Part shown: positions 38,254 through 64,000 of the stretch, one piece after another
Layout: each line of letters begins with the position of its first letter
How positions within the stretch are numbered: the first letter of the stretch is position 1
Origin: Chrysophaeum taylorii
Taxonomy: Eukaryota; Sar; Pelagophyceae; Pelagomonadales; Pelagomonadaceae
Assembly: GCA_029834535.1 (NCBI GenBank)
Contig: JAQMWT010000009.1
Coordinates: 248,001 to 312,000 of the forward strand
DNA: 64,000 bases
Reading direction: 5' to 3'
The notes under the pieces: generated by a model
Database searches by the model: none
What the model saw: only the letters and a program-made list of their open reading frames with translations
Told to the model about the DNA's origin: nothing
Position numbers and translations under genes: made by a program

Positions 38254-41200
38254 AGGGATCGGTCAAGTTTGGTCAAAAAGTTTGGTGAATTTCTTTCATG
38301 TTTGCTCGATTTTGATGTATGATTAAGGAAAAACAAGTGCAGGCCAGTAAGTTCACCTAGTCCCAATCTCTAACCCCAGTAAGTTCACCTGGTCCCAGTA
38401 AGTTTCATATAAGTTCACCTGGTCAGTAAGTTCACCTAGCTCACACCAACTCCTTTGAGCTCGTCGCTCTCGCCTCCGCCAATCTAAGCTGCTTCGATCC
38501 GCACGCGCCGCCTACCTTTGAGTGAGTTTACTCTAAAAACCCTTTGCTCTAAAACCCCAGTATGTTCACCTGGTCCCAGTAAGTTCACCTGGTCACTATA
38601 TTCACCTATCCCAATCTCAAACCCCAGTTAGTTCACCTGGTCCCAGTAAGTTCACCTACAGTGCGCGTGTAGACGCCGGGAGGGGGCTTATCGGTATTGC
38701 GGAGCACGTGTGAGGTAGGGTGGAGTCGTCGACTCAGAAGAGCATATTCTCGGGGTTGCCGATCGACAGAGAGCCACGTAGAGCTGGACGTGACAGAAGA
38801 CGGGCTTGTGGTCAAGAGGACGCCGACCTCGCGGGGCGTCTGGCCCTGGCTCTTGGTGATCGTTTGGCGTCGGCGGGCCTTACGGGATACAGGTTGGAGG
38901 AGCCTCGGTGACAACGACACGATCGATCATGTATCTGGTACCGTTGCAGTGGCCGTGCGACGGGTCGAGGTTGCGAAGACCTTAAGCTCGCGATCAAAGT
39001 CAGCATGCCATTGGTTGTCAGGGAGTTCAAAACTCGACTGTAAAGAGCGAGGCGTCGGCTTCCGACCCAACCTAGTCGGCCGAAAAGAACTCCGACGCCT
39101 CGTCTTCGGGAAAAAAAGGCCGCGGTCATGCGCGCGTTGTCAGCATCGACAACATCGTTTCGACGGGGCGTGAGAATGGCGCGCTGAAAGAGCCGCCGCG
39201 GGCCGTGGAAATAGTCTGCGAGGTCGCCGTAGACGGCTTGGAGGATCACTGTCTGGCTCTCGCGCCTACCTGATCCTTACTCTCGCACCTACCTGATCCT
39301 TACCCTAAATCGATGGACAAACAAACAAACAGACAGACAAACATCTGTCGATTAGTAGTTAAGACTCACAAGTGTGGTCACTTTCCATAGAAGTTTTGTC
39401 AGTTAAGTTTGGTCACTCCGAAGTTGCATTAAGTTTGATCAATCAACTCTTCAAGTTTGATTAATTTCCTTGTAAGTTTGGTCAACAAGTTTGATCACTA
39501 CTCCTCAAACATCCACAGTATTGACCAAACTTCGGCTTTTTAAATAAAACTTAAGAAGGCTTTTCAAGGGGGCGCGTGAGCGCTTTTTGTGCGAAAATGC
39601 TTTAAAAACGAGAGCTAGGTGCTGCAGCCACGCAGAATCTACCGTCGCGTTACACGCGCGGCATGGGCACCCTCCCATGACCGCCTTAGAAGGAGGTCCA
39701 TCCTAAGACAGCGCGGCGATACGCAAGGAGAGCGGGTAGCGAAGCGCGGCCTCGAGAGCAGATTCCCACGGCTTGGCGTATTTAAGCTGGGCCCATTCTC
39801 GTACCTTCCATCGTTCGTAGAAGCCACCCAAACCGCGACTCTCCATGGTGGTGTTGCCGTGGTCGTGCGTCATTCTTCAGCAACAAGCGGACATCGGACA
39901 CCAGACTTACTGCGTGAGACGGATCACCGCATTCTGCATCCCAAAATCCGAGAGGGAGCGTCTTTGATAATCGACTCGGGGTCGAGAACGCGAAACTCGA
40001 CGACCTCGAGAAACTGCGCGAGCAACGCCCCTCGAGAACCCAAAGATTGTAGTCCCACACTTGTGCGGGACCGTACAGGACCACGTTCAGGAGTTCCTCA
40101 CCGTCGCGTACCCGATCCGGAGTTAGCTGTCCAGCTTGATCATGGGACGGCAACGCGAGCACGTGCCGTTACGCCAGCATAAACAACTCGCACGACCGTA
40201 AGAGAACACCTCCTTATCCTCCTCCTCCTCGCGCATCTCGACAACCCCGCCCTGCCGCAAGATCTCCCCGGGAGCTGCTGCCGCACCGTCGAGCACTGTA
40301 CGAGAAAGTCGGCAAATACAAGCTGCGGCGCGAAGGGATGTCAAGACGTCGACAGCCTCGTTCCGGAAGATCGCCGACACCATCCCTGTAATTCTAACCC
40401 AGTCATTAGTACGAGTCTAAAATATGACAAGTTTGATGTGATTGTTCGAAATTTGATCACACCAAATTGAATGCCTCCAAGTTTGACCATACACGCGCAT
40501 CAACATGCGAACACTAGCAGAGCAACATATACAAGCAAGGCCTGCGCAAGGCAACGCTGATACCACGCTGTTTCGTCGCCCAAGATTATTCGGATGCGCC
40601 TTGTTAGTTCGATGTTTATGACAGACTACAGCGAACGATCCCGGTTCGTCATCTCGTGCTTTTAGCGGATGACATTGTTGCAGATGTCTATCAAACGCAT
40701 ATGCCGAGAAGAGCCGCCTGACTGACTAACTAACTAACTAACTTCAGACCTCTCCCGAGCATGGGAGCCAGGCCGGAGCGGCAGGAGCCGGTACGGAATC
40801 ACGGAGGAAAATCACGCAGTTGGGGCAGAGGCGAGGGACGAGGACGGACTTGTTGATGGTGGACCGCCACTGCGCGGTCTTGTGCGAGGTCGTGCAAAAG
40901 CGTCGCAGGCCGCGGACGTGTTGGTCCACGAACAATCGACCTGTCCGTCGCGCTCTGCCCAACCGAGCGAACCCCATCCCAGCGCGGACTTTCCGGGTGC
41001 TAACCGGTCACCGAGCCGCCTGACTTGCCCTCCATAAAGCCCTTGATGAGGACCGACACGGCCTCGCAGAAGTGCTTCGCGCGATAGCTGGATCTTTGTC
41101 GGCAAGCAGGTTCGGAGCAGGTGTGCCTTTTCGCACACGTGACGGTATTGTCTACTTGCACATCACAACGACCAGCACGCACATAAAAGCTGCATCTTGC

Positions 41201-41751
41201 ATATAGCACTTGAACGACAGCGCTGTCGCGCTGTAGACCATGTTGTACATGCCATCAACTTGCCGCCCGTGTCGAACATCATCTGCTGCAAGTCGGCCTC
41301 GAGAACACACATGCTGAACTTGGCATCTTGGTTAGATCGAGTAAAGTGGAGCCTCGCATTTGCGCGCTCTGAGCTGCGACAGCGTATTCGGCGATCTCTC
41401 ATAGTCGTTTACCTTCGTCTGGGCACGCGATTTCTTGTTTTCTTTCTCGGCGTCGTGGTCAACCGACGTCGGCGTGTTACCACCACGCTCCCGCTCGACC
41501 TGAGCGACGAAACCCGCATCGATACCGTGTTCGTTTCGAAGTCGAAGGACGCTCCGGAGTCTCAGTGCCACGCGCAGAACCGCTGAAAGCTTGATCACGG
41601 CGGGCCTTGTTTTGTCAGCGAACAGTATGTTTGCTCTATAAGAGTACAAGTTTAGTCAACCAAGAGACGGATTGACCAAACTTAAGTGACCAACTTGTTG
41701 AAGGTTTACGGTGACCAAACTTATATGGTGGTTGGAAACTTGACTTTTCCC
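38254..41751. mobile_element. DNA transposon, element B copy 1 (interrupted by element A)
   Basis: Starts AGGGATCGGTCAAGTTT and ends AAACTTGACTTTTCCC, imperfect terminal inverted repeats of about 16-17 bp. The flanks are ATT-rich on both sides and compatible with an 8-bp duplication TTATTATT (38246-38253 and 41752-41759), though simple sequence makes this copy ambiguous. Both ends carry many subterminal AAGTTTGGTCA-type motifs, direct on the left (39370-39530) and inverted on the right (41650-41735), as expected for transposase-binding arrays. About 2.47 kb remain after removing the nested A copy (38333-39361). The interior has only broken frames, best on the minus strand, including a cysteine-rich segment. 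Termini and duplication size resemble the hAT superfamily, but no transposase domain was identified. Confidence 0.78.
38333..39361 (+). repeat. Element A copy 1, nested in element B
   Basis: A roughly 1.03-kb unit starting CAAGTGCAGGCCAGTAAG and ending CTGTCGATTAGTAGTTA. It interrupts B copy 1 where B copy 2 is continuous (AAGGAAAAATTCACAAG). The first third consists of repeats built on CCAGTAAGTTCACCTGG, itself an imperfect inverted repeat. The rest (about 38658-39300) is unique sequence conserved between copies. Near the 3' end a variable ACAAACAGACAG tract leads into a hairpin GACAGA-CAAACA-TCTGTC (39332-39349), 12 bases from the end. Frames are not conserved between copies. Confidence 0.8.
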
Positions 41752-41787
41752 TTATTATTATTATACGCCGGGCAGTTATTTATTTAT

Positions 41788-44700
41788 TCACAGAGTAGAC
41801 GGCGCAAGTTTCCGCCATTCGAGCAGGGCCTTCGAAGGCACTATGACGCGAGCTGGGTCTGCCGGATCGAAATCTAAACGAAAGTGGTAGTCGCGGCGGA
41901 GGAGGTCGACGATGGCCTTCCTGAGGCTGCCCTTTCGGGAGCGCCTGTTGTGACCGGTGATAATAACGAGGTCGTGGCGAGGGTCGTGGAAGGGACGATC
42001 TCGAGGCCTCCGAAGCGTGTCCTGGATGGTGAGTCTGACCAAGGTGCGCGCGACAGGAATGCCGCGCTCGAGGAGGTTAAGCGGGTCTGCGCTGGAGTCC
42101 TTCCAGCAGTGCGGAAAGAGGCCCGCGGTGCGAGCCCTCAGGATCGCGGCCTCCGCCCTCCGAAAGTCCCCGGCTATCTCGCAGACCGAGATGGCGGCGT
42201 TGTAGGCCGCGGAGATCGGGAAGTGTTCGAGGACCTCGATCGCGTCCTCCCAGCGGTCTCCCCGTTGGCACGCCGAGAAGAGGGATGCGTAGGCGAAGGC
42301 GTCGAGCTCGAGAGATCGCGCGCGCATCTCGGCGACGAGGTCGAGCGCGAGGCCGGCGTTGGCCGCGTCGTCGCAGGCCGCGAGCAGCGCGTCGTAGGTC
42401 GCCGGCGGGCCGAGCCAGGCGCGCGCGGCGTCCCAGCGGCGGGCGTTGGCGAGCGCGGAGACGACGGCGGTTCGAGCGCCGACGGTCGGAACGAGGCCGC
42501 GGTCGCACGCCACTTCGAGGAGCGCGAGGGCCTCGTCCCGGCGGCCGGCCTTGTCGCAGGCGGCGACGGCCGCGGCGTAAGAGTCGGTCGTCGGGACGAG
42601 GCCCTCGCGCCGTCGCATCTCGTCCAAAAACTCGAGGGCTTTCTCCCAGCGGTCGTCGCAGGCCGATATGAGAGCGTCGTAGGTCGCGACGGTCGGTCGG
42701 ACACCCCGCGCGCGCATCTCGTCGACGAGCGCGCGCGCCTCGCGGTAGCGAGAGGCGCGCGCGCACGCGGCTATGGCGGCGTCGTACTCGCGAGTTCCGA
42801 CGTCAAAGTCGAGCGCCCGCATCTCCTCCAGAAGCGAGAGCGCCTCGTCCCAGCGGCCAACCTTCTCGCACGCCGACAAAACCGCGTTGAAGGTTATCAC
42901 GTTCGGCTCGACGCGCATATCGGCGAAGATTGCGAGGGCCTGGTCGGCGCGACGCGCCTCGTCGAGCGCGGATATGATCGTGTTGTAGGTAACGACCGTC
43001 GGGTCGAGGTCGCGACGATCGCGGCCGCGGCGGCACAAGTCGTCGAGGAGCGAAAGGGCCTCGGGCCACCGCTTGGCCTTGCAGCATGCCGATATGGCCA
43101 TGTTGTAGGCGATTACGGTCGGTCTTTTCATTTCTTCGAGCAACGCGATCGCCACTCGCCAATCTCCGGCCTTTTGGCACGCCGAGATCGAGGCCAAGTA
43201 GGTCGCCGCGTCGGGGGCGAGGCCGGCGCGGCGCATATCGTCGAGCAGCGACAAAGCGAGATCGGGGTCGTCCTCCGCGCCTTGGAGGATGGTGTTGTAG
43301 GTGACGACGGACGGTTCGACGTTGCTGTCGTCCGAACGCATTTCCGCCAATATCTCGAGCGCCGCGTCCCACTCGCGGGCCTGGACGCACGCCGAGACGA
43401 CCGCGTCGTACGAGATTACGGAGGGGGCCATCCCGCGGTCGCGCATCTCGGCGAGCAGCCCCCGCGCCCTCTCCCACTGCCCGCCCTTTCGGCACGCCGA
43501 GATGGCGGCCGTCAGCGTGACGGCCGTCGGTGCTAATCCCCGCTCTCGAATTTCGTCGAGAAAATTCAACGCGTCTTCCCAACGGTTCGCCCGTTCGGAG
43601 GCCGAGATGAGCGTGTTGAAGGTGACGACGTTCGGGGGGGGGACCCGGTGGCATCGTCGCATCTCGTCGACGAGGTCGGCCGCCTCGCTCGCCCTGCCCG
43701 CCTTGACGAGAACCGCGACGACCATGTTGGCGGCGACTACCGTCGGCATCAGGCCGCGACGCTTCATCTCGTCCAGAAGCTCGACCGCGGCCTCCCAGCG
43801 GTTCGTCTTGTGGCACGCCGAGATCGCGGCCGCGTAGGTGACGACGTTGGGTTGGTTCGTCGTACTCTTTTTCATTTTTTCGAGGACCGCGAGCGCCGTC
43901 GTCGCGTCGCCGGCCTCGTCGCAGGCCGCGACGGCGGCGTTCGAGGCGACGAGGTTTGGCTCGACCCCGCGGTCGCGCATCTCGTCGAGCATCGCGACGG
44001 CCTTGTCGGGCTGCCTGGCCCTGCCGTAGGCCGTGATGATCGCGTCGTAGAGGAGGAGGTCTGGCGTCGTCGTCGTCGTCGAGAAGCGCGATCGCGCGTC
44101 GTCGACGAGCGCGTCTAACGAGCTTTCGCGCCGCTCGCTCCTGCCGCAGGCCTTGATCACGACCGCCGAGGTCGCGAGATTGGGTTCGAAACCCTTCTCC
44201 CGCATCTCGTCGTGGAGCGCGAGGACCCGGTCCCATTGCTTTCCCCTCTCGCAGGCGGCGATGGCGACCGCGTACGTAACACGGTTCGGCTCTACGTCGT
44301 CGTCTCCCCGCATTTCGTCGACGAGTCGGACGGCCGCGTCCCAGCGGCCGCTCCTCTCGCAGGCGGCGATGACCCCGTTGTAGGTGGACACGTCCGGGCG
44401 GTGCTGGTCGCGCCGCATCTCGTCCAGAACATCGAGCGCCTCGCGCCAACGGCCGCCCTTGGCGCACGCGGCGACGACCGCCGAATAGGTAACGGAATCG
44501 GGCGGATTCTCCGTCTTCCGCCGCCGCGATTCCTTCAAGAGGGAGAGAGCAAGTTTCCACTTGTTCGCCTTCTCGCACGCGGCGATCGCGGTGCTGTAGG
44601 TGACCGCGTTCGGCGCGACCCCTCTGTCGCGCATCTCGTCGACGAGGGCGAGCGCGCGATCGTATTCTCGCGCGCGACCGAGCCGCGCGACGAGCGCGTT

Positions 44701-45441
44701 AAAAAGTCGCGCGTCGGGCTCCATCCCGTCGCGCGCCAGGTCGTCCCACAACTCCCAGACCCGAGTCCACTGGCTCGCTGCGCCGCACGCCGCCATCGCG
44801 GCGCCGTAGGTCGCGATCGATGGCCGGATGCCGCGGAGCCGCATCTCTTTCAAGAGCGAGAGCGCGGATTCCCAGCGGTCTCCCGCCGCCGAGATCGCCG
44901 CGGCGTAGGAGACCGCGTTCGGCAACGGGATCTCCCCCAAGACCTCCAACACGAGCTCCCACTGGCCGCCCTTTCCGAGCGCGGTGATGACGGTGTTGAA
45001 GCTGAGGACGTCGGGCACGACACCGTCCTCTCGCATTTCGTCTAGAAGAGCGACCGCCTTCCGCCAGTTTCCCGCGCGCGCGCACGCGCCGACCGCCGCG
45101 TTGTAGGATAGGAGGTCGGGGGCACCCCCGCGACGGAGCTCGTCCAACAGCAAAAACGCCTTGGCCGGCTGCCGCGTGCGGCCAAAGGCGCGGATGAACA
45201 ACGAGGTCTCGCGGCCCGGCTTGAGGGGCTTGAGGAGCGCGAGCAGTTCGTCGAGCTCGCCGCGCTCGTCGGTCTTCGCGACGCGGGAAAGCAAGTCGCG
45301 CCGCCGCCGCCCGAAGCAACACGGACGACATCGTCGCGCCCGCTGCTGCGGTGGTGGTGGGACCACCACCACCACCTTGAAAGCGGTGGTGGTGGTGGTC
45401 GCCGCGGCGGCCAGCAACCATAATAATAACACTCCGAACAT
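41788..45441 (-). CDS. PPR-SMR protein with about 30 PPR motifs, probably plastid-targeted
   Basis: A 1,217-aa pentatricopeptide-repeat protein. ATG 45441 is chosen because it gives a clean bipartite presequence: signal peptide MFGVLLLWLLAAAATT then TTTAFKVVVVV, where A-F resembles the ASAFAP cleavage junction for secondary plastids. The frame is open upstream to 45696 but that overlaps the VPS9 gene. From about residue 75 to 1,110 there are about 30 consecutive PPR motifs of roughly 35 residues (for example PNAVTYSTAIAACEKANKW, PTVVTYNTIISALDEARRA). The C-terminal 90 residues resemble an SMR domain (VIITGHNRRSRKGSLRKAIV). PPR-SMR proteins bind organelle RNA or regulate plastid expression (GUN1, SVR7, pTAC2 in plants). 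Target RNA could be approached through the repeat code. Divergent from VPS9 gene by 45 bp. Confidence 0.92.
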   Translation of the reverse strand: MFGVLLLWLLAAAATTTTTAFKVVVVVPPPPQQRARRCRPCCFGRRRRDLLSRVAKTDERGELDELLALLKPLKPGRETSLFIRAFGRTRQPAKAFLLLDELRRGGAPDLLSYNAAVGACARAGNWRKAVALLDEMREDGVVPDVLSFNTVITALGKGGQWELVLEVLGEIPLPNAVSYAAAISAAGDRWESALSLLKEMRLRGIRPSIATYGAAMAACGAASQWTRVWELWDDLARDGMEPDARLFNALVARLGRAREYDRALALVDEMRDRGVAPNAVTYSTAIAACEKANKWKLALSLLKESRRRKTENPPDSVTYSAVVAACAKGGRWREALDVLDEMRRDQHRPDVSTYNGVIAACERSGRWDAAVRLVDEMRGDDDVEPNRVTYAVAIAACERGKQWDRVLALHDEMREKGFEPNLATSAVVIKACGRSERRESSLDALVDDARSRFSTTTTTPDLLLYDAIITAYGRARQPDKAVAMLDEMRDRGVEPNLVASNAAVAACDEAGDATTALAVLEKMKKSTTNQPNVVTYAAAISACHKTNRWEAAVELLDEMKRRGLMPTVVAANMVVAVLVKAGRASEAADLVDEMRRCHRVPPPNVVTFNTLISASERANRWEDALNFLDEIRERGLAPTAVTLTAAISACRKGGQWERARGLLAEMRDRGMAPSVISYDAVVSACVQAREWDAALEILAEMRSDDSNVEPSVVTYNTILQGAEDDPDLALSLLDDMRRAGLAPDAATYLASISACQKAGDWRVAIALLEEMKRPTVIAYNMAISACCKAKRWPEALSLLDDLCRRGRDRRDLDPTVVTYNTIISALDEARRADQALAIFADMRVEPNVITFNAVLSACEKVGRWDEALSLLEEMRALDFDVGTREYDAAIAACARASRYREARALVDEMRARGVRPTVATYDALISACDDRWEKALEFLDEMRRREGLVPTTDSYAAAVAACDKAGRRDEALALLEVACDRGLVPTVGARTAVVSALANARRWDAARAWLGPPATYDALLAACDDAANAGLALDLVAEMRARSLELDAFAYASLFSACQRGDRWEDAIEVLEHFPISAAYNAAISVCEIAGDFRRAEAAILRARTAGLFPHCWKDSSADPLNLLERGIPVARTLVRLTIQDTLRRPRDRPFHDPRHDLVIITGHNRRSRKGSLRKAIVDLLRRDYHFRLDFDPADPARVIVPSKALLEWRKLAPSTL

Positions 45442-45486
45442 AATAATAAACCCTCCAGCACCAGCTTCTCGTCTCGTACCCCACCA
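45442..45486. promoter_or_regulatory. 45-bp divergent promoter
   Basis: Start-to-start interval between the PPR-SMR gene (minus) and the VPS9 gene (plus). An AT block AATAATAAA abuts the PPR ATG and a pyrimidine-rich CTTCTCGTCTCG stretch precedes the VPS9 ATG. No known motif is seen. Confidence 0.4.
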
Positions 45487-46926
45487 ATGGAGGATGAGGA
45501 CCTCGCGGCGGACCTCGCCTCGATGCGCGAGTTCCTCGAGGAGGAGGAGGAGGAGGAGGAGGATGGGGGCGAGGAAAAGGCCTCCTGGGAGACGAAGGAG
45601 GTGCCGTGGGACGCGCAGACCGAGTTCGCCGCGGCGGCCGAGCTGGGCGTCCCCGCCGACACCACCACAACTACGACCACCGAAGAGGCCCAACACTTTT
45701 TGCTCCGGCGGGGGGGCTTCGACCTGGACGAGTCAGATCTCGAGCACGTGCGGCGCGAACTCGAGAATCTCGAGGACGCGCCAGAAGCCGAGGCGCCCGA
45801 GGACGCGCTGCCGCGAGGCCGGATCTCGGAGCTCGACGACATCGCGAATTCGGCCGGTTTTCTGCACAAGGGAAGCGGCAAGCCCACCAAGACGGCGGCA
45901 AGCGCCGGGCTCTACGAAGCAGCAGCCGCCGCCGAAGACGTCTTAACGCCGCGGAAGAAGGACGTCTACGAGGACGAGGGCACGCCGCTGACTTACAAAG
46001 AATTTCTCGCGCGCCTCATGCTCCCGCACTCGCACGAGCTCGTCGCCCACGTCAAGGCTTTTGTGGTCCGCGCCCTCGACGAGGCGAGGAGCCTCGACGA
46101 CGGCGTCCGCGCCCGGAAACCGGGGGCGCGCGAACGCCGCGACCAAGTCCTCAGACGTCTCCCCGAACGCTGCGGCAAATTCTTCGACGCGGCCGAGGCT
46201 CACCTCGAGCGCCACCCCGAGTGGAAAAAAATCGGTCGCATCGGCATCGCCTCGAGCCGCGCCGCCCTCGAAAAGTACGTCATGAACAAAATCGGCGCCT
46301 TTGCCTTCGAGAGCTGTCGCGACGACGAGACCGACGACCGTCTCCGCGCCCGCTGCCGCGCGCTCGCTTCGTTCCTAACCCCCGACCACCTCGACATCAA
46401 GCCCGGACTCTGCAACGAGGTCGTCCTCCACATCGCCCGCGACGAGCTCCGCCGGATGGACTCCTGCCGCGCCCCGGCCGACAAGGTCGACTGCGTCGTC
46501 AAGTGCGCCAGCATCATCTTCTCCGCGCTCAACCTATCGCGCGCGGAGACTTCATCCAAAAGGGGCGGCGGCGTCGCCAACGAGAGCCGCGCGGGCGCCG
46601 ACGACTTCCTCCCCGTCTTTATCTACGTCGTCCTCCACGCCGACGCCCCCCGCCTCTACTCCAACTGCGACTACGTCCAAGCCTATCACAACCCCGCCCA
46701 GCTCATGAGCAAGGCGGGCTACTGCTTCGTCAACCTCCGCTCCGCCGTCGAATTCCTCCTCAACTTATCCCACGACCAAATCGGCATGGACCAGAATGAC
46801 TTCAACGCCAAGCTCCAGCGCGCTCTCGACGACCAGAACCACCACCAGCAACAGCAGCAGCAGCAAAAGGCTGGTATTGGCGTTGCAGAGGGGCTATCAT
46901 CATCATCGTCGTCGTCGTCGTCATAA
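45487..46926 (+). CDS. VPS9-domain protein, putative Rab5-type guanine nucleotide exchange factor
   Basis: A 479-aa cytosolic protein. The N-terminus is acidic (poly-Glu at 19-26). A helical segment around residues 160-300 precedes a VPS9 domain (about 305-435) recognisable from LTPDHLDIKPGLCNEVV, KVDCVVKCASIIFSAL, the core GADDFLPVFIYVVLHA with the catalytic aspartate, then YVQAYHNPAQLMSKAGYCFV where the family has the conserved tyrosine, and NLRSAVEFLLNL. In Rabex-5 and Vps9 this domain activates Rab5-family GTPases on early endosomes, with the preceding helical bundle as a stabiliser. The C-terminus is low complexity (poly-Gln then nine Ser). AATAAA occurs at 46982-46987 in the 3' flank. 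Confidence 0.9.
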   Translation: MEDEDLAADLASMREFLEEEEEEEEDGGEEKASWETKEVPWDAQTEFAAAAELGVPADTTTTTTTEEAQHFLLRRGGFDLDESDLEHVRRELENLEDAPEAEAPEDALPRGRISELDDIANSAGFLHKGSGKPTKTAASAGLYEAAAAAEDVLTPRKKDVYEDEGTPLTYKEFLARLMLPHSHELVAHVKAFVVRALDEARSLDDGVRARKPGARERRDQVLRRLPERCGKFFDAAEAHLERHPEWKKIGRIGIASSRAALEKYVMNKIGAFAFESCRDDETDDRLRARCRALASFLTPDHLDIKPGLCNEVVLHIARDELRRMDSCRAPADKVDCVVKCASIIFSALNLSRAETSSKRGGGVANESRAGADDFLPVFIYVVLHADAPRLYSNCDYVQAYHNPAQLMSKAGYCFVNLRSAVEFLLNLSHDQIGMDQNDFNAKLQRALDDQNHHQQQQQQQKAGIGVAEGLSSSSSSSSS

Positions 46927-49022: not shown

Positions 49023-50397
49023 AGGGATCGGTCAAGTTTGGCCAATAAGTTTGGTCAATTTCTTTCAAGTTTTCTTGATTTTGATGTATGATTAAGGAAA
49101 AATTCACAAGTTTGGTCACTTTCAATAGAAGTTTGATCAGTTAAGTTTGGTCACTCCTCTGAAGTTGCATTAAGTTTGATCAATTAACCCTTCGAGTTTG
49201 ATTAATAACCTTGTAAGTTTGGTCAACAAGCGCGTGAGCGCTTTTGGTGCGAAAATGCTGTAAAAACGAGTGCTAGGTGTGGCTGCAGCCACGCAGAGTC
49301 TACCGTGGCGTTACACGCGCGGCATGGGCACCCCCCCATGACCGCCTTAGAAGGAGATCCATCCTAAGACAGCGCGGCGATACGCGAGGAGAGCGGGCAG
49401 CGACGCGCGGCCTCGAGAGAAGATTCCCACGGCTTGGCGTATTTAAGCTGGGCCCATTCTCGTACCTTCCATCGTTCGTAGAAGCCACCCAAACCGCGAC
49501 TCACCACGGTGGTGTTGCCGTGGTCGTACGTGATTCTTCAGCAACAAGCGGACATCGGACACCAGACTTATTACATGGTCTGCGTGAGACGGATCACCCC
49601 ATTCCCAAAATCTCTCCGAGAGGGAGCGCGTCTTTGATAATCGACTCGGGGTCGAGTTAAAACGCGAAACTCGACAACCTCGAGAAACTGCGCGAGCAAC
49701 GCCCCTCGAGCACCCAAAGATTGTAGTCCCACACTTGTGCGGGACAGTACAGGACCACGTTCAGGAGTTCCTCACCGTCGCGTACCCGATCCGGAGATAG
49801 CTGTCCAGCTTGATCATGGGACGGTAACGCGAGCACGTGCCGTTACGCCAGCATAAACAACTCGCACGACCGTAAGTGAACACCTCCTTATCCTCCTCCT
49901 CCTCGCGCATCTCGACAACCCCTCCCTGCCGCAAGATCTCCCCGGGAGCTGCTGCTGCACCGTCGAGCACTGTACGAGAAAGTCGGCAAATACAAGCTGC
50001 GGCGCGAAGGGATGTCAAGACGTCGACAGCCTCGCTCTGGAAACACCACCCCTGTAATTCTAACCCAGTCACTAGTACGAGTCTAAAATATGACGAGTTT
50101 GATGTGATTGTTCGAAATTTGATCACAACAAATGAATGCCTCCAAGTTTGACCATACACACGCATCAACATGCGAATACTCCAAGAACAACATCCACAAA
50201 CAAGGCCTGCGTAAGACAACGCTGATACCACGCTGTTTCGTCGCCCAAGATTATTCGGATGCGCCTTATTAGTTCGATGTTCATGACAGACTACAGCGAA
50301 CGATCCCGGTTCGTCATCTCGTGCCTTTAGCGGATGACATTGTTGCAGATGTCTATCAAACGCATATGCCGAGAAGAGCCGCCTGACTGACTGACTG

Positions 50398-50433
<36 letters not shown>

Positions 50434-51466
50434 CCTTAATAACTAACTAACTTCAGACCCCTCCCGAGTATGGGAGCCAGGCCGGACCGGCAGGAGCCGG
50501 TACGGAATCACAGAGGAAAATCACGCAGTTGGGGCAGAGGCGAGGGACGAGGACGGACTTGTTGATGGTGGACCGCCACTGCGCGGTCTTGTGCGAGGTC
50601 GTGCAACAGCGTCGCAGGCCGCAGACGTGTTGGTCCACGAACAATCGACCTGTCCGTCGCGCTCTGCCCAACCGAGCGAACCCCATCCCAACGCGGACTT
50701 TCTGGGTGCTAACCGGCCAGCGAGCCGCCTGACTTGCCCTCCATAAAGCCCTTGATGAGGACCGACACGGCCTCGCAGAAGTGCTTCGCGCGATAGCTGG
50801 ATCTTTGTCGGCAAGAAGGTTCGGAGCAGGTGTGCCTTTTAGCACACGTGACGGTATTGTCTACTTGCACATCACAACGAGCAGCACGCACATAAACGCT
50901 GCATCTTGCATATAGCACTTGAACGACAGAGCTGTCGCGCTGTAGACCATGTTGTACACGCCGTCAACTTGCCGCCCGCGTCGAACATCATCTGCTGCAA
51001 GTCGGCCTCGAGAACACACATGCTGAACTTGGCATCTTGGTTAGATCGAGTAAAGTGGACTACCCTCGTATTTTTTGCGCGCTCCGAGCTGCGACAGCGT
51101 ACTCGGCGATCTCTCATAGTCGTTTACCTTCGTCTGGGCACGCGACTTACTTCTTGTTTTCTTTCTCGGCGTCGTGGTCAACCGACGTCGGCGTGTTACC
51201 ACCACGCGACTTGAGCGACGAAACCCGCATCGATACCGAGTTCGTTTTGAAGTCGAAGGACGATCCGGAGTCGCAGCGCGACATGAAGAACCGCTGAAAG
51301 CTTGATCACGGCGGGCCTTGTTTTGTCAGCGAACCGTATGTTTGCTCTCTAAGAGTACAAGTTTAGTCAACCAAGAGACGGGTTGACCAAACTTAAGAAG
51401 TGACTAAACTTGTTGAAGGTTTACGGTGACCAAACTTATATGGTGGTTGGAAACTTGACTTTTCCC
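49023..51466. mobile_element. DNA transposon, element B copy 2 (uninterrupted)
   Basis: A 2,444-bp element with ends AGGGATCGGTCAAGTTT and AAACTTGACTTTTCCC, flanked by a perfect 8-bp duplication TTATGGAA (49015-49022 and 51467-51474). Subterminal AAGTTTGGTCA motifs cluster at both ends in opposite orientation (about 49030-49230 and 51357-51445), plus internal ones near 50095-50155. It is closely similar to copy 1 throughout, with small indels such as an expanded (CTAA)n tract (about 50396-50450). Minus-strand frames include a Cys/His-containing stretch (near 50840-50760, YRAKHFCEAVSVLIKGFMEG) and FYERWKVREWAQLKYAKPW near 49480-49430, probably transposase remnants, but all are broken. An 8-bp duplication and an AGGG start fit hAT-type elements; superfamily not proven. 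Confidence 0.85.
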
Positions 51467-51474
51467 TTATGGAA

Positions 51475-52544
51475 GGACAAGTGCAGGCAAGTAAGTTCAC
51501 CTATCTCTAACCCCAGTAAGTTCACCTAATCCCAGTAAGTTTCATATAAGGTCACCTGGTCAGTAAGTTCACCTAGCTCTAACCAACTCCTTTGAGCTCG
51601 TCGCTCTCGCCTCCGCCAATCTAAGCTGCTTTGGTCCGCACGCGCCGCCAACCTTTGAGTTTACTCTAAAAACCCTTTACTCTGAAAACCCCAGTATGTT
51701 CACCTGGTCCCAGTTTCACCTGGTCACTCAGCCCACCTAGTCCCAATCTTTAACCCCAGTAAGTTCACGTGGTCCCAGTAAGTTCACCTATAGTGCGCGT
51801 GTAGACGCCGGGAGGGGGCTTATCGGCATTGCGCAGCACGTGTGGGGTAGGGCGGAGTCGTCGACCCAGAAGAGGATATCCTCGGGGTTGCCGATCGACA
51901 GAGAGCCACGTCGAGCTGGACGTGGCAGAAGACGGGCTTCGCCAAGAGGACGCCGACCTTGCGGGACGTCTGGCCCTGGCTCTTGTTGATCGTTTGGCGT
52001 AGGCGGGCCTTAAGCGATACAGGTTGGAGGAGCCTCGGTGACAACGACACGATCGATCATGTATCTGGAGGAGCCTCGGTGACAACGACACGATCGATCA
52101 TGTATCTGGTACCGTTGCAGTGGCCGTGCGACGGGTCGAGGTTGCGAAGACATTAAGCTCGCGATCAAAGTAAGCATGCCGTTGGTTGTCAGGGAGTTGA
52201 AAACTCTACTGTAAAGAGCGAGGCGTCGTCTTCCGACCCAGCCTAGTCAGCCGAAAAGAACTCCGACGCCTCGTCTCCGGGAAAAAAAGGCCGCGGTCAT
52301 GCGCGCGTTGTTAGCATCGACGACATCGTTTCGACGGGGCGTGAGAATGGCGCGTGGAAAGAGCCGCCGCGGGTCGTGGAAATAGTCTGCGAGGTCGCCG
52401 TAGACGGCTTGGAGGATCACTGTCTGGCTCTCGCGCCTACCTGATCATTACTCTCGCGCCTACCTGATCCTTACCCTAAATCGAGGGACAAACAAACAGA
52501 CAAACAGACAGACAGACAGACAAACATCTGTCGATTAGTAGTTA
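51475..52544 (+). repeat. Element A copy 2, abutting element B copy 2
   Basis: A unit of about 1.07 kb starting immediately after the right 8-bp duplication of element B copy 2 (GGACAAGTGCAGG) and ending CTGTCGATTAGTAGTTA. Same internal plan as copy 1. It carries a private tandem duplication of about 43 bases (GGAGGAGCCTCGGTGACAAC and following, about 52026-52110). The terminal hairpin GACAGA-CAAACA-TCTGTC is at 52515-52532, then 12 bases to the end. Confidence 0.82.
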
Positions 52545-52672
52545 GGAAAAAGAACCCACTGAAATGGAGAAGGAAATGGGGCACAATCCTTGATTGTGGG
52601 GGTGTAATATGTGAACCCGCTTAGCTCGTGTTGAATCAATAATTATTAGTTTTTTGCCTCAAGAAGGAAAAG

Positions 52673-60313: not shown

Positions 60314-60454
60314 CTTCCTGGAAGGAGCAAAACCAGGGAGGGATCGTCTTTAACTACTAATCGACAGATTTGTCCCTATGACTCAGCTAATAAATCGCGC
60401 CACGTCGTAACGGTCGTCGCACCTTAAAACAACTCTTCTTCTTCACGCAGCGCC

Positions 60455-61201: not shown

Positions 61202-62327
61202 ACAAGTGCAGGCCAGTAAGTTCACCTAGTCCCAATCTCTAACCCCAGTAAGTTCACCTGGTCCCAGTTAGTTTCTTGAAAATTTATTGAATAAGTTCAC
61301 CTGGTCAGTAAGTTCACCTAGTCCAAATCTCTAACCCCAGTAAGTTCGGCGTAAACCCACTCGTGCTCACACCCACTCCTTCGAGCTCGTCGCTTTCGCC
61401 TCCGCCAATCTAAGCTGCTTCGATCCGCACGCGCCGCCTACCTTTGAGTGAGTTTACTCTAAAAACCCTTTGCTCTAAAACCCCAGTATGTTCACCTGGT
61501 CCCAGTAAGTTCACCTGGTCACTAAGTTCACCTAGTCCCAATCTCAAACCCCAGTAAGTTCACCTGGTCCCAGTAAGTTCACCTACAGTGCGCGTGTAGA
61601 CGCCGGGAGGGGGCTTATCGGTATTGCGGAGCACGTGTGGCAGGGTGGAGTCGTCGACTCAGAAGAGCATATTCTCGGGGTTGCCGATCGACAGAGAGGC
61701 ACGTAGAGCTGGACGTGACAGAAGACGGGCTTGTGGGCAAGAGGACGCCGACCTCGCGGGGCGTCTGGCCCTGGCTCTTGGTGATCGTTTGGCGTCGGCG
61801 GGCCTTACGGGATACAGGTTGGAGGAGCCTCGGTGACAACGACACGATCGATCATGTATCTGGTACCGTTGCAGTGGCCGTGCGACGGGTCGAGGTTGCG
61901 AAGACTTTAAGCTCGCGATCAAAGTCAGCATGCCGTTGGTTGTCAGGGAGTTCAAAACTCGACTGTAAAGAGCGAGGCGTCGGCTTCCGACCCAACCTAG
62001 TCGGCCGAAAAGAACTCCGACGCCTCGTCTCCGGGAAAAAAAGGCCGCGGTCATGCGCGCGTTGTCAGCATCGTCTTCGGGAAAAAAAGGCCGCGGTCAT
62101 GCGCGCGTTGTCAGCATCGACAACATCGTTTCGACGGGGCGTGAGAATGGCGCGCTGAAAGAGCCGCCGCGGGTCGTGGAAATAGTCTGCGAGGTCGCCG
62201 TAGACGGCTTGGAGGATCACTGTCTGGCTCTCGCGCCTACCTGATCCTTACTCTCGCGCCAATCTGATCCTTACCCTAAATCGAGGGACAAACAGACAGA
62301 CAGACAAACATCTGTCGATTAGTAGTT
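61202..62327 (+). repeat. Element A copy 3 (first of tandem array)
   Basis: A unit of about 1.13 kb beginning ACAAGTGCAGGCCAGTAAG. It is longer than the others partly because it has a private tandem duplication of about 45 bases (GGGAAAAAAAGGCCGCGGTC repeated at about 62033 and 62079). The terminal hairpin GACAGA-CAAACA-TCTGTC is at 62299-62316. The 3' end AGTAGTTA runs directly into the next unit's CAAGTGC with no spacer. Confidence 0.85.
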
Positions 62328-63407
62328 ACAAGTGCAGGCCAGTAAGTTCACCTAGTCCCAATCTCTAACCCCAGCAAGTTCACCTGTTTCTGTTAAGTTC
62401 ACCTAGTCCCAATCTCTAATCCCAGCAAATTCGGCGTAAACCCAATCTCTAACCCCAGCAAGTTCGGCGTAAACTCAAACCCTCTCTCCTTTGAGCTCGT
62501 CGCTCTCACCCCCGCCAATCTAAGCTGCTTTGATCCGCACACGCCGCTAACCTTTTAGTTTACTCTAAAAGCCCCAGTAAGTTCACACTTGGTCTCAGTA
62601 AGTTCACCCTGGTCAAGTTTCACCTAGTCCCAATCTCTAACCCCAGTAAGTTCACCTGGTTCCAGTAAGTTCACCTGGTCCCAGTAAGTTCACCTATAGT
62701 GCGCGTGTAGACGCCGGGAGGGGGCTTATCGGTATTGCGCAGCACGTGTGGGGTAGGGTGGAGTCGTCGACCCAGAAGAGGATATCCTCGGGGTTGCCGA
62801 TCGACAGAGAGCCACGTAGAGCTGGACGTGGCAGAAGACGGGCTTCGCCAAGAGGACGCCGACCTCGCGGGGCGTCTGGCCCTGGCTCTTGGTGATCGTT
62901 TGGCGTCGGCGGGCCTTAAGGGATACAGGTTGGAGGAGCCTCGGTGACAACGACACGATCGATCATGTATCTGGTACCGTTGCAGTGGCCGTGCGACGGG
63001 TCGAGGTTGCGAAGACTTTAAGCTCGCGATCAAAGTCAGCATGCCGTTGGTTGTCAGGGAGTTCAAAACTCGACTGTAAAGAGCGAGGCGTCGGCTTCCG
63101 ACCCAACCTAGTCGGCCGAAAAGAACTCCGACGCCTCGTCTCCGGGAAAAAAAGGCCGCGGTCATGCGCGCGTTGTCAGCATCGACAACATCGTTTCGAC
63201 GGGGCGTGAGAATGGCGCGCTGAAAGAGCCGCCGCGGGTCGTGGAAATAGTCTGCGAGGTCGCCGTAGACGGCTTGGAGGATCACTGTCTGGCTCTCGCG
63301 CCTACCTGATCCTTACTCTCGCGCCTACCTGATCCTTACCCTAAATCGAGGGACAGACAAACAGACAAACAGACAAACAGACAAACATCTGTCGATTAGT
63401 AGTTAGG
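62328..63407 (+). repeat. Element A copy 4 (tandem)
   Basis: A unit of about 1.08 kb. The repeated CCAGTAAGTTCACCTGG region is followed by the conserved body, which is antisense-open for 204 codons (63285-62671) but from a GTG and not conserved in other copies. The tract before the 3' hairpin is expanded (CAAACAGA units). The hairpin here (63377-63392) has a 5-bp stem because one base of the outer pair is changed. A GGA triplet separates its end from copy 5. Confidence 0.85.
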
Positions 63408-64000
63408 ACAAGTGCAGGCCAGTAAGTTCACCTAGTCCCAATCTCTAACCCCAGTAAGTTTGGTGTAAGCCCACTCGTGCTCACACCCGCTCACCCCACT
63501 CTCCTTCGAGCTCGTCGCTCTCACCTCCGCCAATCTAAGCTGCTTTGATCCGTACACGCCGCTAGCCTTTGCGTCCACTCTAAAAACCCCAGTAAGTTCA
63601 CTTGGTCCCAGTAAGTTCACCTGGTCACTAAGTTCACCTAGTCCCAATCTCAAACCCCAGTAAGTTCACCTGGTCCCAGTAAGTTCACCTACAGTGCGCG
63701 TGTAGACGCCGGGAGGGGGCTTATCGGTATTGCGCAGCACGTGTGGGGTAGGGTGGAGTCGTCGACTCAGAAGAGGATATCCTCGGGGTTGCCGATCGAC
63801 AGAGAGCCACGTAGAGCTGGACGTGGCAGAAGACGGGCTTCGCCAAGAGGACGCCGACCTCGCGGGGCGTCTGGCCCTGGCTCTTGTTGATCGTTTGGCG
63901 TAGGCGGGCCTTAAGGGATACAGGTTGGAGGAGCCTCGGTGACAACGACACGATCGATCATGTATCTGGTACCGTTGCAGTGGCCGTGCGACGGGTCGAG
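63408..64000 (+). repeat. Element A copy 5 (tandem, cut by window end)
   Basis: The 5' part of a further A unit, directly following copy 4 and matching it to the last base of the window. The array therefore continues beyond 64,000; its full copy number is unknown. Confidence 0.85.

Follow-up and report, generated by a model that had tools for sequence, protein, structure and literature searches.

Canonical Helitrons (Helitron1, with Helraiser/Helibat of bats) encode a protein that combines a Rep domain of the HUH type with a PIF1-type helicase. These elements begin with TC, end with CTRR shortly after a hairpin, and enter A/T targets without target duplication, with a T after the 3' end (a slash marks an insertion point or a junction throughout). 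Helitron2 elements, or Helentrons, have asymmetric terminal inverted repeats and carry an endonuclease domain after the helicase.

Excerpts of several papers bear on Helitrons that lie side by side. Tandem arrays and head-to-tail junctions are cited there in support of rolling-circle transposition (PMC5876387); perfect head-to-tail junctions are reported for bats (PMC2267711, citing the bat case), and Helraiser is described as using an AT target and forming circles (PMC4778049). An adjacent head-to-tail pair in maize is explained by consecutive insertion at a site composed of the host A and the element T (PMC2267711). The tandem Helitrons of plant centromeres (Xiong et al. 2016) are said to be truncated copies in which several 5' ends often accompany a single 3' end, and are attributed to rolling-circle amplification (PMC12628747). 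For the FoHeli elements of Fusarium oxysporum, extra short 5' termini are ascribed to self-insertion, and one FoHeli4 is located 2 bp before the 5' end of another (PMC5148889). Internal blocks of tandem repeats are described in a non-autonomous Helitron of rice (PMC4683698).

Herein, we analysed a window, that is, a whole stretch of 64,000 nucleotides of Chrysophaeum taylorii (C9:248001-312000 in an assembly of 70.8 Mb and 697 contigs), at the end of which a repeat, element A, lies in a row. The initial annotation had described at least three head-to-tail copies with two junction forms and two single copies at 38.3 and 51.5 kb, and all of these were recovered as real (Table 1). Read on the plus strand, the junction at 62328/62329 is AGTAGTTA/CAAGTGC and that at 63405-63409 is AGTAGTTA-GGA-CAAGTGC. 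In the first unit of the row, A0, the TCC before TAAC is absent, and the motif repeated in its 3' region resembles the sequence immediately preceding the 3' end of A. In the contig, the row consists of four units and extends to about C9:313234; the 5' end of A2 is broken there, with the CTTG of its neighbour fused to TGTTTGTCTG (C9:312379-312406), and the 3' end of the fourth unit lies at C9:312389. The length of the A unit ranged from 843 to 1198 bp with a median of 1046 bp (41 units from 26 sources, retained from 46 after dropping two L044 duplicates of the window array and three units outside 800-1300 bp).

Table 1. Positions of element A units, their junctions and the helicase remnants in the window
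Feature	Position	Strand	Details
Dispersed A copy within a copy of element B	38334..39364	(-)	5' TCT 39362-39364
Dispersed A copy adjoining the second element B copy	51478..52547	(-)	5' TCC 52545-52547
Unit A0	61203..62328	(-)	5' TAACTACT at 62328, 3' CTTG at 61203, then flank T
A0 3' region	61203..61590	(-)	nine copies of a motif like CCAGGTGAACTTACTGG
Helicase remnant, A0	61762..62211	(-)	QAVYGDL to SQGQT, three frames
Junction A1/A0	62325..62332	(-)	CTTG/TAAC, without TCC
Unit A1, complete	62329..63408	(-)	5' TCC 63406-63408, 3' CTTG 62329
Decayed PIF1/Helitron helicase C-terminal stretch, A1	62806..63276	(-)	motifs across all three frames
Junction A2/A1	63402..63412	(-)	CTTG-TCC-TAAC; this form exact 355 times genome-wide
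Unit A2, truncated by the window edge	63409..64000	(-)	

Two internal tandem duplications, of 41 bp (52025-52109) and 46 bp (62025-62119), each lie within a single A unit. A lone A-like 5' end (TAACTACTAATCGACAGATTTGTC) was seen at 60351 on the plus strand, oriented oppositely to the A units, with a small coding-like stretch beginning about 100 bp further on; no 3' end matching it was found on the plus strand of the window.

The whole assembly was searched with the ends of A. The 3' end CTTACTGGCCTGCACTTG was found 3073 times with at most two mismatches and 2508 times exactly, and the reversed control of this 18-nt motif gave 0 matches genome-wide, so the repeat greatly exceeds chance. The 5' end was found 2923 times with at most three mismatches and 2134 times exactly (TCYTAACTACTAATCGACAG, beginning with TC). 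With about 3,000 ends per side, we estimate about 3,000 copies of some 1.05 kb each, or roughly 4-5% of the assembly. On contigs C1-C10, 50 of the 91 exact 3' ends were single, and the other 41 lay in same-strand clusters of two to four. A T directly followed 2456 of the 2508 exact 3' ends. The base before the exact 5' end was G in 1060 cases, at least 355 of which stem from array junctions, A in 648, and C or T in 426.

Empty sites were sought by joining the flanks of 28 insertions and searching the fetched loci. Among the matches listed, the copy at 38 kb and a copy at locus L047 had empty sites that indicate insertion without target-site duplication. The 38-kb copy had entered element B at CTTGTGAG/TTTTTCC; its empty site was present in L030/L031 (98% over 98 bp) and, with GTGAA, in the other B copy of the window (49023-49184, 91%). 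The L047 copy separates the TCT from the TAAC of a further A copy; this T/T site is uninterrupted in L029 (99.4% over 155 bp). Two further cases were seen: the L006 copy was inserted at G/T in the TTTGTCTG leader of another copy, and L002 contains two units 4 bp apart, apparently at GTTGG/TATG/TCTTAG, with a slightly different left flank.

Element B itself is a 2.4-kb repeat present at 38254-41755 and 49023-51467, the first copy being enlarged by the inserted A. Its ends are inverted (GGGA...GTCAAGTTT), and an 8-bp flank duplication, TTATGGAA, was seen by eye around the second copy; B resembles a non-autonomous DNA transposon of the MULE type. In the stretch separating its two copies, the minus strand encodes a protein of 1302 aa consisting mostly of PPR repeats (41788-45696, 16 PPR_2 stretches). 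The genes of the window include PPR, myosin head, VPS9, BT1, SH3/WW and PDCD2_C.

The initial annotation had stated that none of the copies encodes a conserved protein, which proved wrong in detail, as the minus strand carries a decayed, frame-broken helicase C-terminus. The best solved-structure match of a 78-aa frame at 62726-62962 was Helraiser (7lcc, E 1.8e-5), and PIF1 helicases followed at about 0.035. Pfam searches of five A translations gave nothing convincing, with sub-threshold matches in two. In each of four A copies the helicase motifs are split over two or three frames; since the motifs lie in different frames, these four copies do not encode a helicase.

A Rep-Hel Helitron of this genome, at locus L032, has the domains Helitron_like_N (1.2e-58), PIF1 (2e-43) and Pif1_2B (6.7e-21), spread over two frames that are separated by a break. 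By eye, this locus also contains PHAHIL and KYIHKY, which we take to be HUH-like motifs. L032 combines the Rep (HUH, two-tyrosine) and the PIF1/SF1 helicase of an autonomous partner. The helicase pieces of A were 50% identical to the helicase end of L032; this partner and the solved-structure match, not Pfam, established the helicase link. Positions 387-1031 of A aligned at 70-82% (DNA) with the terminal part of seven Rep-Hel copies (L030-L035, L042). Five of these seven terminate precisely in AAACTTACTGGCCTGCACTTG; the 3' end of L032 has a variant last base, after which the end motif is repeated, and that of L033 is one base short. Judged by sequence, A thus has a 3' end in common with Rep-Hel Helitrons of its own genome, and a Rep-Hel Helitron having this 3' end is most likely what moves A. 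The partner copies L030 and L031 both carry a similar leader, but the 5' end motif of A was found in neither. The partner would probably have the 5' end of A too, as suggested by the junction at C105:48013-48050 directly before L032. Matches to Helitron_like_N numbered 40 in the genome, some of them pieces of one copy.

Taken together, the partner protein, the 5' TC, the lack of target duplication and the T target place A with the Helitron-type elements. The likeness to canonical Helitrons covers the Rep HUH plus PIF1-type helicase of the partner, the 5' TC, the insertion without target duplication, the T after the 3' end and head-to-tail junctions like the perfect ones reported for bats. However, A and its partner end in CTTG instead of CTRR, and the target seems to be purine/T rather than A/T, with G commoner than A before the 5' end. 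The canonical hairpin was not found either: four folded 70-nt 3' ends of A and the partner were no better than shuffles (z of -0.24, 0.88, 1.41 and 2.10). Given the 3' CTTG and the failure to find a hairpin, A was not classed as a canonical Helitron. Membership in the Helentrons was likewise rejected. In four A copies, the longest match between inverted ends was 5-6 nt (shuffle mean 5.6-6.0), revealing no terminal inverted repeats, and no endonuclease domain was detected in the two L032 frames scanned.

The exact CTTG/TCC/TAAC junction accounted for 355 of the 2508 exact 3' ends, against an expectation of about 0.045% for random purine/T insertion (assuming 3,000 copies and the dinucleotide counts of the window), indicating that borders are hit far above chance. 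On C1-C10, an exact 5' end lay within 30 nt of 29 of the 91 exact 3' ends. Longer rows, known by end coordinates alone beyond the fetched loci, were seen at C11:27704-34651 (eight exact 3' ends) and C20:32117-47108 (15 kb, at least 13 5' ends). Within the fetched loci, 28 neighbours lying within 35 nt were head-to-tail, the two window junctions being counted twice, and no head-to-head or tail-to-tail neighbours were seen at this distance.

Some resident copies were split close to their 5' end. A full 5' end preceded by a 21-nt 5' stub occurred 52 times, and the complementary broken junction CTTG/TGTTTGTCTG occurred 71 times (at most one mismatch each). For 25 of the 52 stubs, a matching junction lay no more than 3.6 kb downstream on the same strand (in 19 cases 900-1250 bp away), and the controls gave 0 on the opposite strand and 1 on the wrong side. 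The other 27 stubs had no matching junction within 3.6 kb, and L044 has the broken junction without the expected stub. Stubs displaced in this way show that new copies entered resident ones.

The rows also include members of a second Rep-Hel family, F2, with about 66% identity in the pieces that could be aligned. Its ends are TCCACAATAATTAATTGGG (5') and CTTGGCCTTACTAG (3', ending in CTAG), and it was found at L029, L034, L036, L038, L039, L040, L042 and L048. Its 3' region has an 8-bp GC stem, yet the hairpin scored z of only -1.24 and -0.36. We counted what follows each 3' end in the fetched loci, omitting the window array (present in L044) and ends with less than 30 nt of flank; as the loci were selected for A or Rep matches, the fractions are not genome-wide. 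All ten F2 3' ends run straight into a Helitron 5' end, seven into that of F2 and three into that of A, so Helitron borders may be a near-exclusive target of F2. Among 62 A-type 3' ends, 24 were followed by an A 5' end, two by an F2 5' end (one with TCTTCT in between), six by a leader and 30 by other sequence. One of the seven partner-type 3' ends led into an A 5' end and six led elsewhere, among them that of L032, where an A 5' end is reached past a 14-nt repeat.

Neighbouring units in rows were hardly more alike than units from different places. With gaps ignored, 16 adjacent pairs had a mean identity of 95.6%, compared with 95.1% for 780 different-locus pairs; the excess was weak (P about 0.05 for the 16 pairs, 0.02 for the nine pairs without A0-like units). 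The median rank of a neighbour was 15 of 40, against an expected rank of about 20, and the neighbour was the nearest relative in one of 32 directed comparisons. Dimers transposed as a block, sought as shared ordered pairs, numbered 0. Moreover, A0 and five units more than 99% identical to it (C498, C359, C398, C374 and C673) occupy six loci with no shared neighbours, and the seven other neighbours of the A0-like units are 93-97% identical among themselves. These loci were picked for their similarity to A0, with 40 of 2503 first-look candidates scored. The rows are mosaics whose neighbours are hardly sisters, which favours serial insertion.

As the simplest account, we propose that A, which leaves no target duplication, mostly enters where a purine (G or A) precedes T. 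An inserted copy has a T at its 5' edge and a G at its 3' edge, with flanks that are usually a purine and T, so both borders of the resident are usually purine/T targets again. Later copies, of A or of the other Helitron family, would enter at these borders as well as within the 5' leader of the resident. The G/T border would be a one-way target, since the opposite strand reads A/C, without T, and independent insertions would therefore build head-to-tail rows. The border preference and the polarity would presumably come from the transposase. In the window row, the other units may have entered between TCT and TAAC of A0; the CTTG/TAAC junction between A1 and A0 and the outermost 5' flank, which reads TTGG-TCT-TCC-TAAC in L044, are as expected from such an entry. 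Several observations speak against this account: the 426 of 2134 exact 5' ends that follow C or T, the T/T empty site of L047/L029, the slight excess of similarity between neighbours, the 27 unpaired stubs, the stubless broken junction of L044, the 5' end motif of A not found in L030 and L031, and the likeness of a precise same-family junction to a joined-end circle.

On this evidence, element A is quite probably a non-autonomous Helitron-type rolling-circle transposon, with the minus strand as the informative one, whose rows arose by serial insertion at resident Helitron ends. The suggestion of the initial annotation that A is a rolling-circle-type element holds for the element type, given the 3' end common to A and the Rep-Hel Helitrons. 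The further idea that such an element leaves tandem copies fits poorly with dissimilar neighbours, two-family junctions and stubs. In its explicit form, this idea makes each row a multimer produced in one event, by rolling-circle replication past the 3' end or from joined-end circles, and inserted as a block. The 355 precise CTTG/TCC junctions are what a joined-end circle gives, Helraiser produces such circles according to excerpts of PMC4778049, and neighbours are slightly more alike than chance. However, multimers would not lead one to expect neighbours that differ as much as copies from separate loci do, rows mixing two families, displaced 21-nt stubs with the broken junction one unit further, or A0-like units with different neighbours at every locus, and we consider this origin of the rows unlikely. 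Multimers may still add a share to the rows, since a precise same-family join is indistinguishable from that of a circle with joined ends, and the weakly raised similarity between neighbours leaves room for them.

A satellite seeded by a mobile element had also been suggested. In favour of such a satellite, enlarged by unequal crossing-over, the tandem units of about 1.05 kb, the at least 13 5' ends over 15 kb on C20 and the same weak similarity excess could be adduced. Neighbours were not clearly more alike than distant units as in a satellite, and this lack of homogenisation leaves the suggestion unsupported. The variable junctions located at transposon ends and the predominance of single 3' ends on C1-C10, with the others in clusters of two to four, also run against it, making a satellite very improbable. 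That the row is an assembly artefact, with a single A unit at this place, is barely credible: the units differ from one another (84% identity by BLAST and 93.3% without gaps for the first two of the window), the same junction type recurs exactly at hundreds of sites, and the row lies inside a 530-kb contig. Mosaic rows, two-family junctions, stubs paired with broken junctions and the excess of border hits thus point to serial insertion at the ends of resident Helitrons rather than to rolling-circle multimers or satellite amplification. A stronger version, in which the transposases home actively on resident Helitron ends of their own and the other family and the rows reflect end-directed insertion, not rolling-circle multimers, is put forward only tentatively.

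As far as the excerpted accounts go, the maize pair resembles these rows in its dissimilar neighbours and G/T junction, but it is one pair, whereas Chrysophaeum taylorii has exact junctions by the hundred, rows in which two families are mixed, and internal stubs. The plant-centromere tandems are likewise rows of non-autonomous Helitron copies; unlike them, each whole A unit has both ends, and neighbours are dissimilar. The FoHelis are Helitron2-type elements with asymmetric terminal inverted repeats, which were not found in A. Among the literature matches listed, no title dealt with this Helitron family or with Helitron rows in algae or other protists. Tandem Helitrons are already known; what is new here is the scale, the genome-wide evidence and the three distinct lines that point to serial insertion.

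Because this genome holds two families, about 3,000 copies and junctions in the hundreds, the rolling-circle and the consecutive-insertion readings can be separated from sequence; for the most part, the evidence points to consecutive insertion directed at ends. The genome also contains a family of Helitron type whose 3' ends, thousands in number, do not have the canonical CTRR; those of the copies folded showed no hairpin either. A simple polarity rule is suggested, in which the G/T border is a one-way target. Active end homing, if true, would remove a commonly cited argument for the rolling-circle model.
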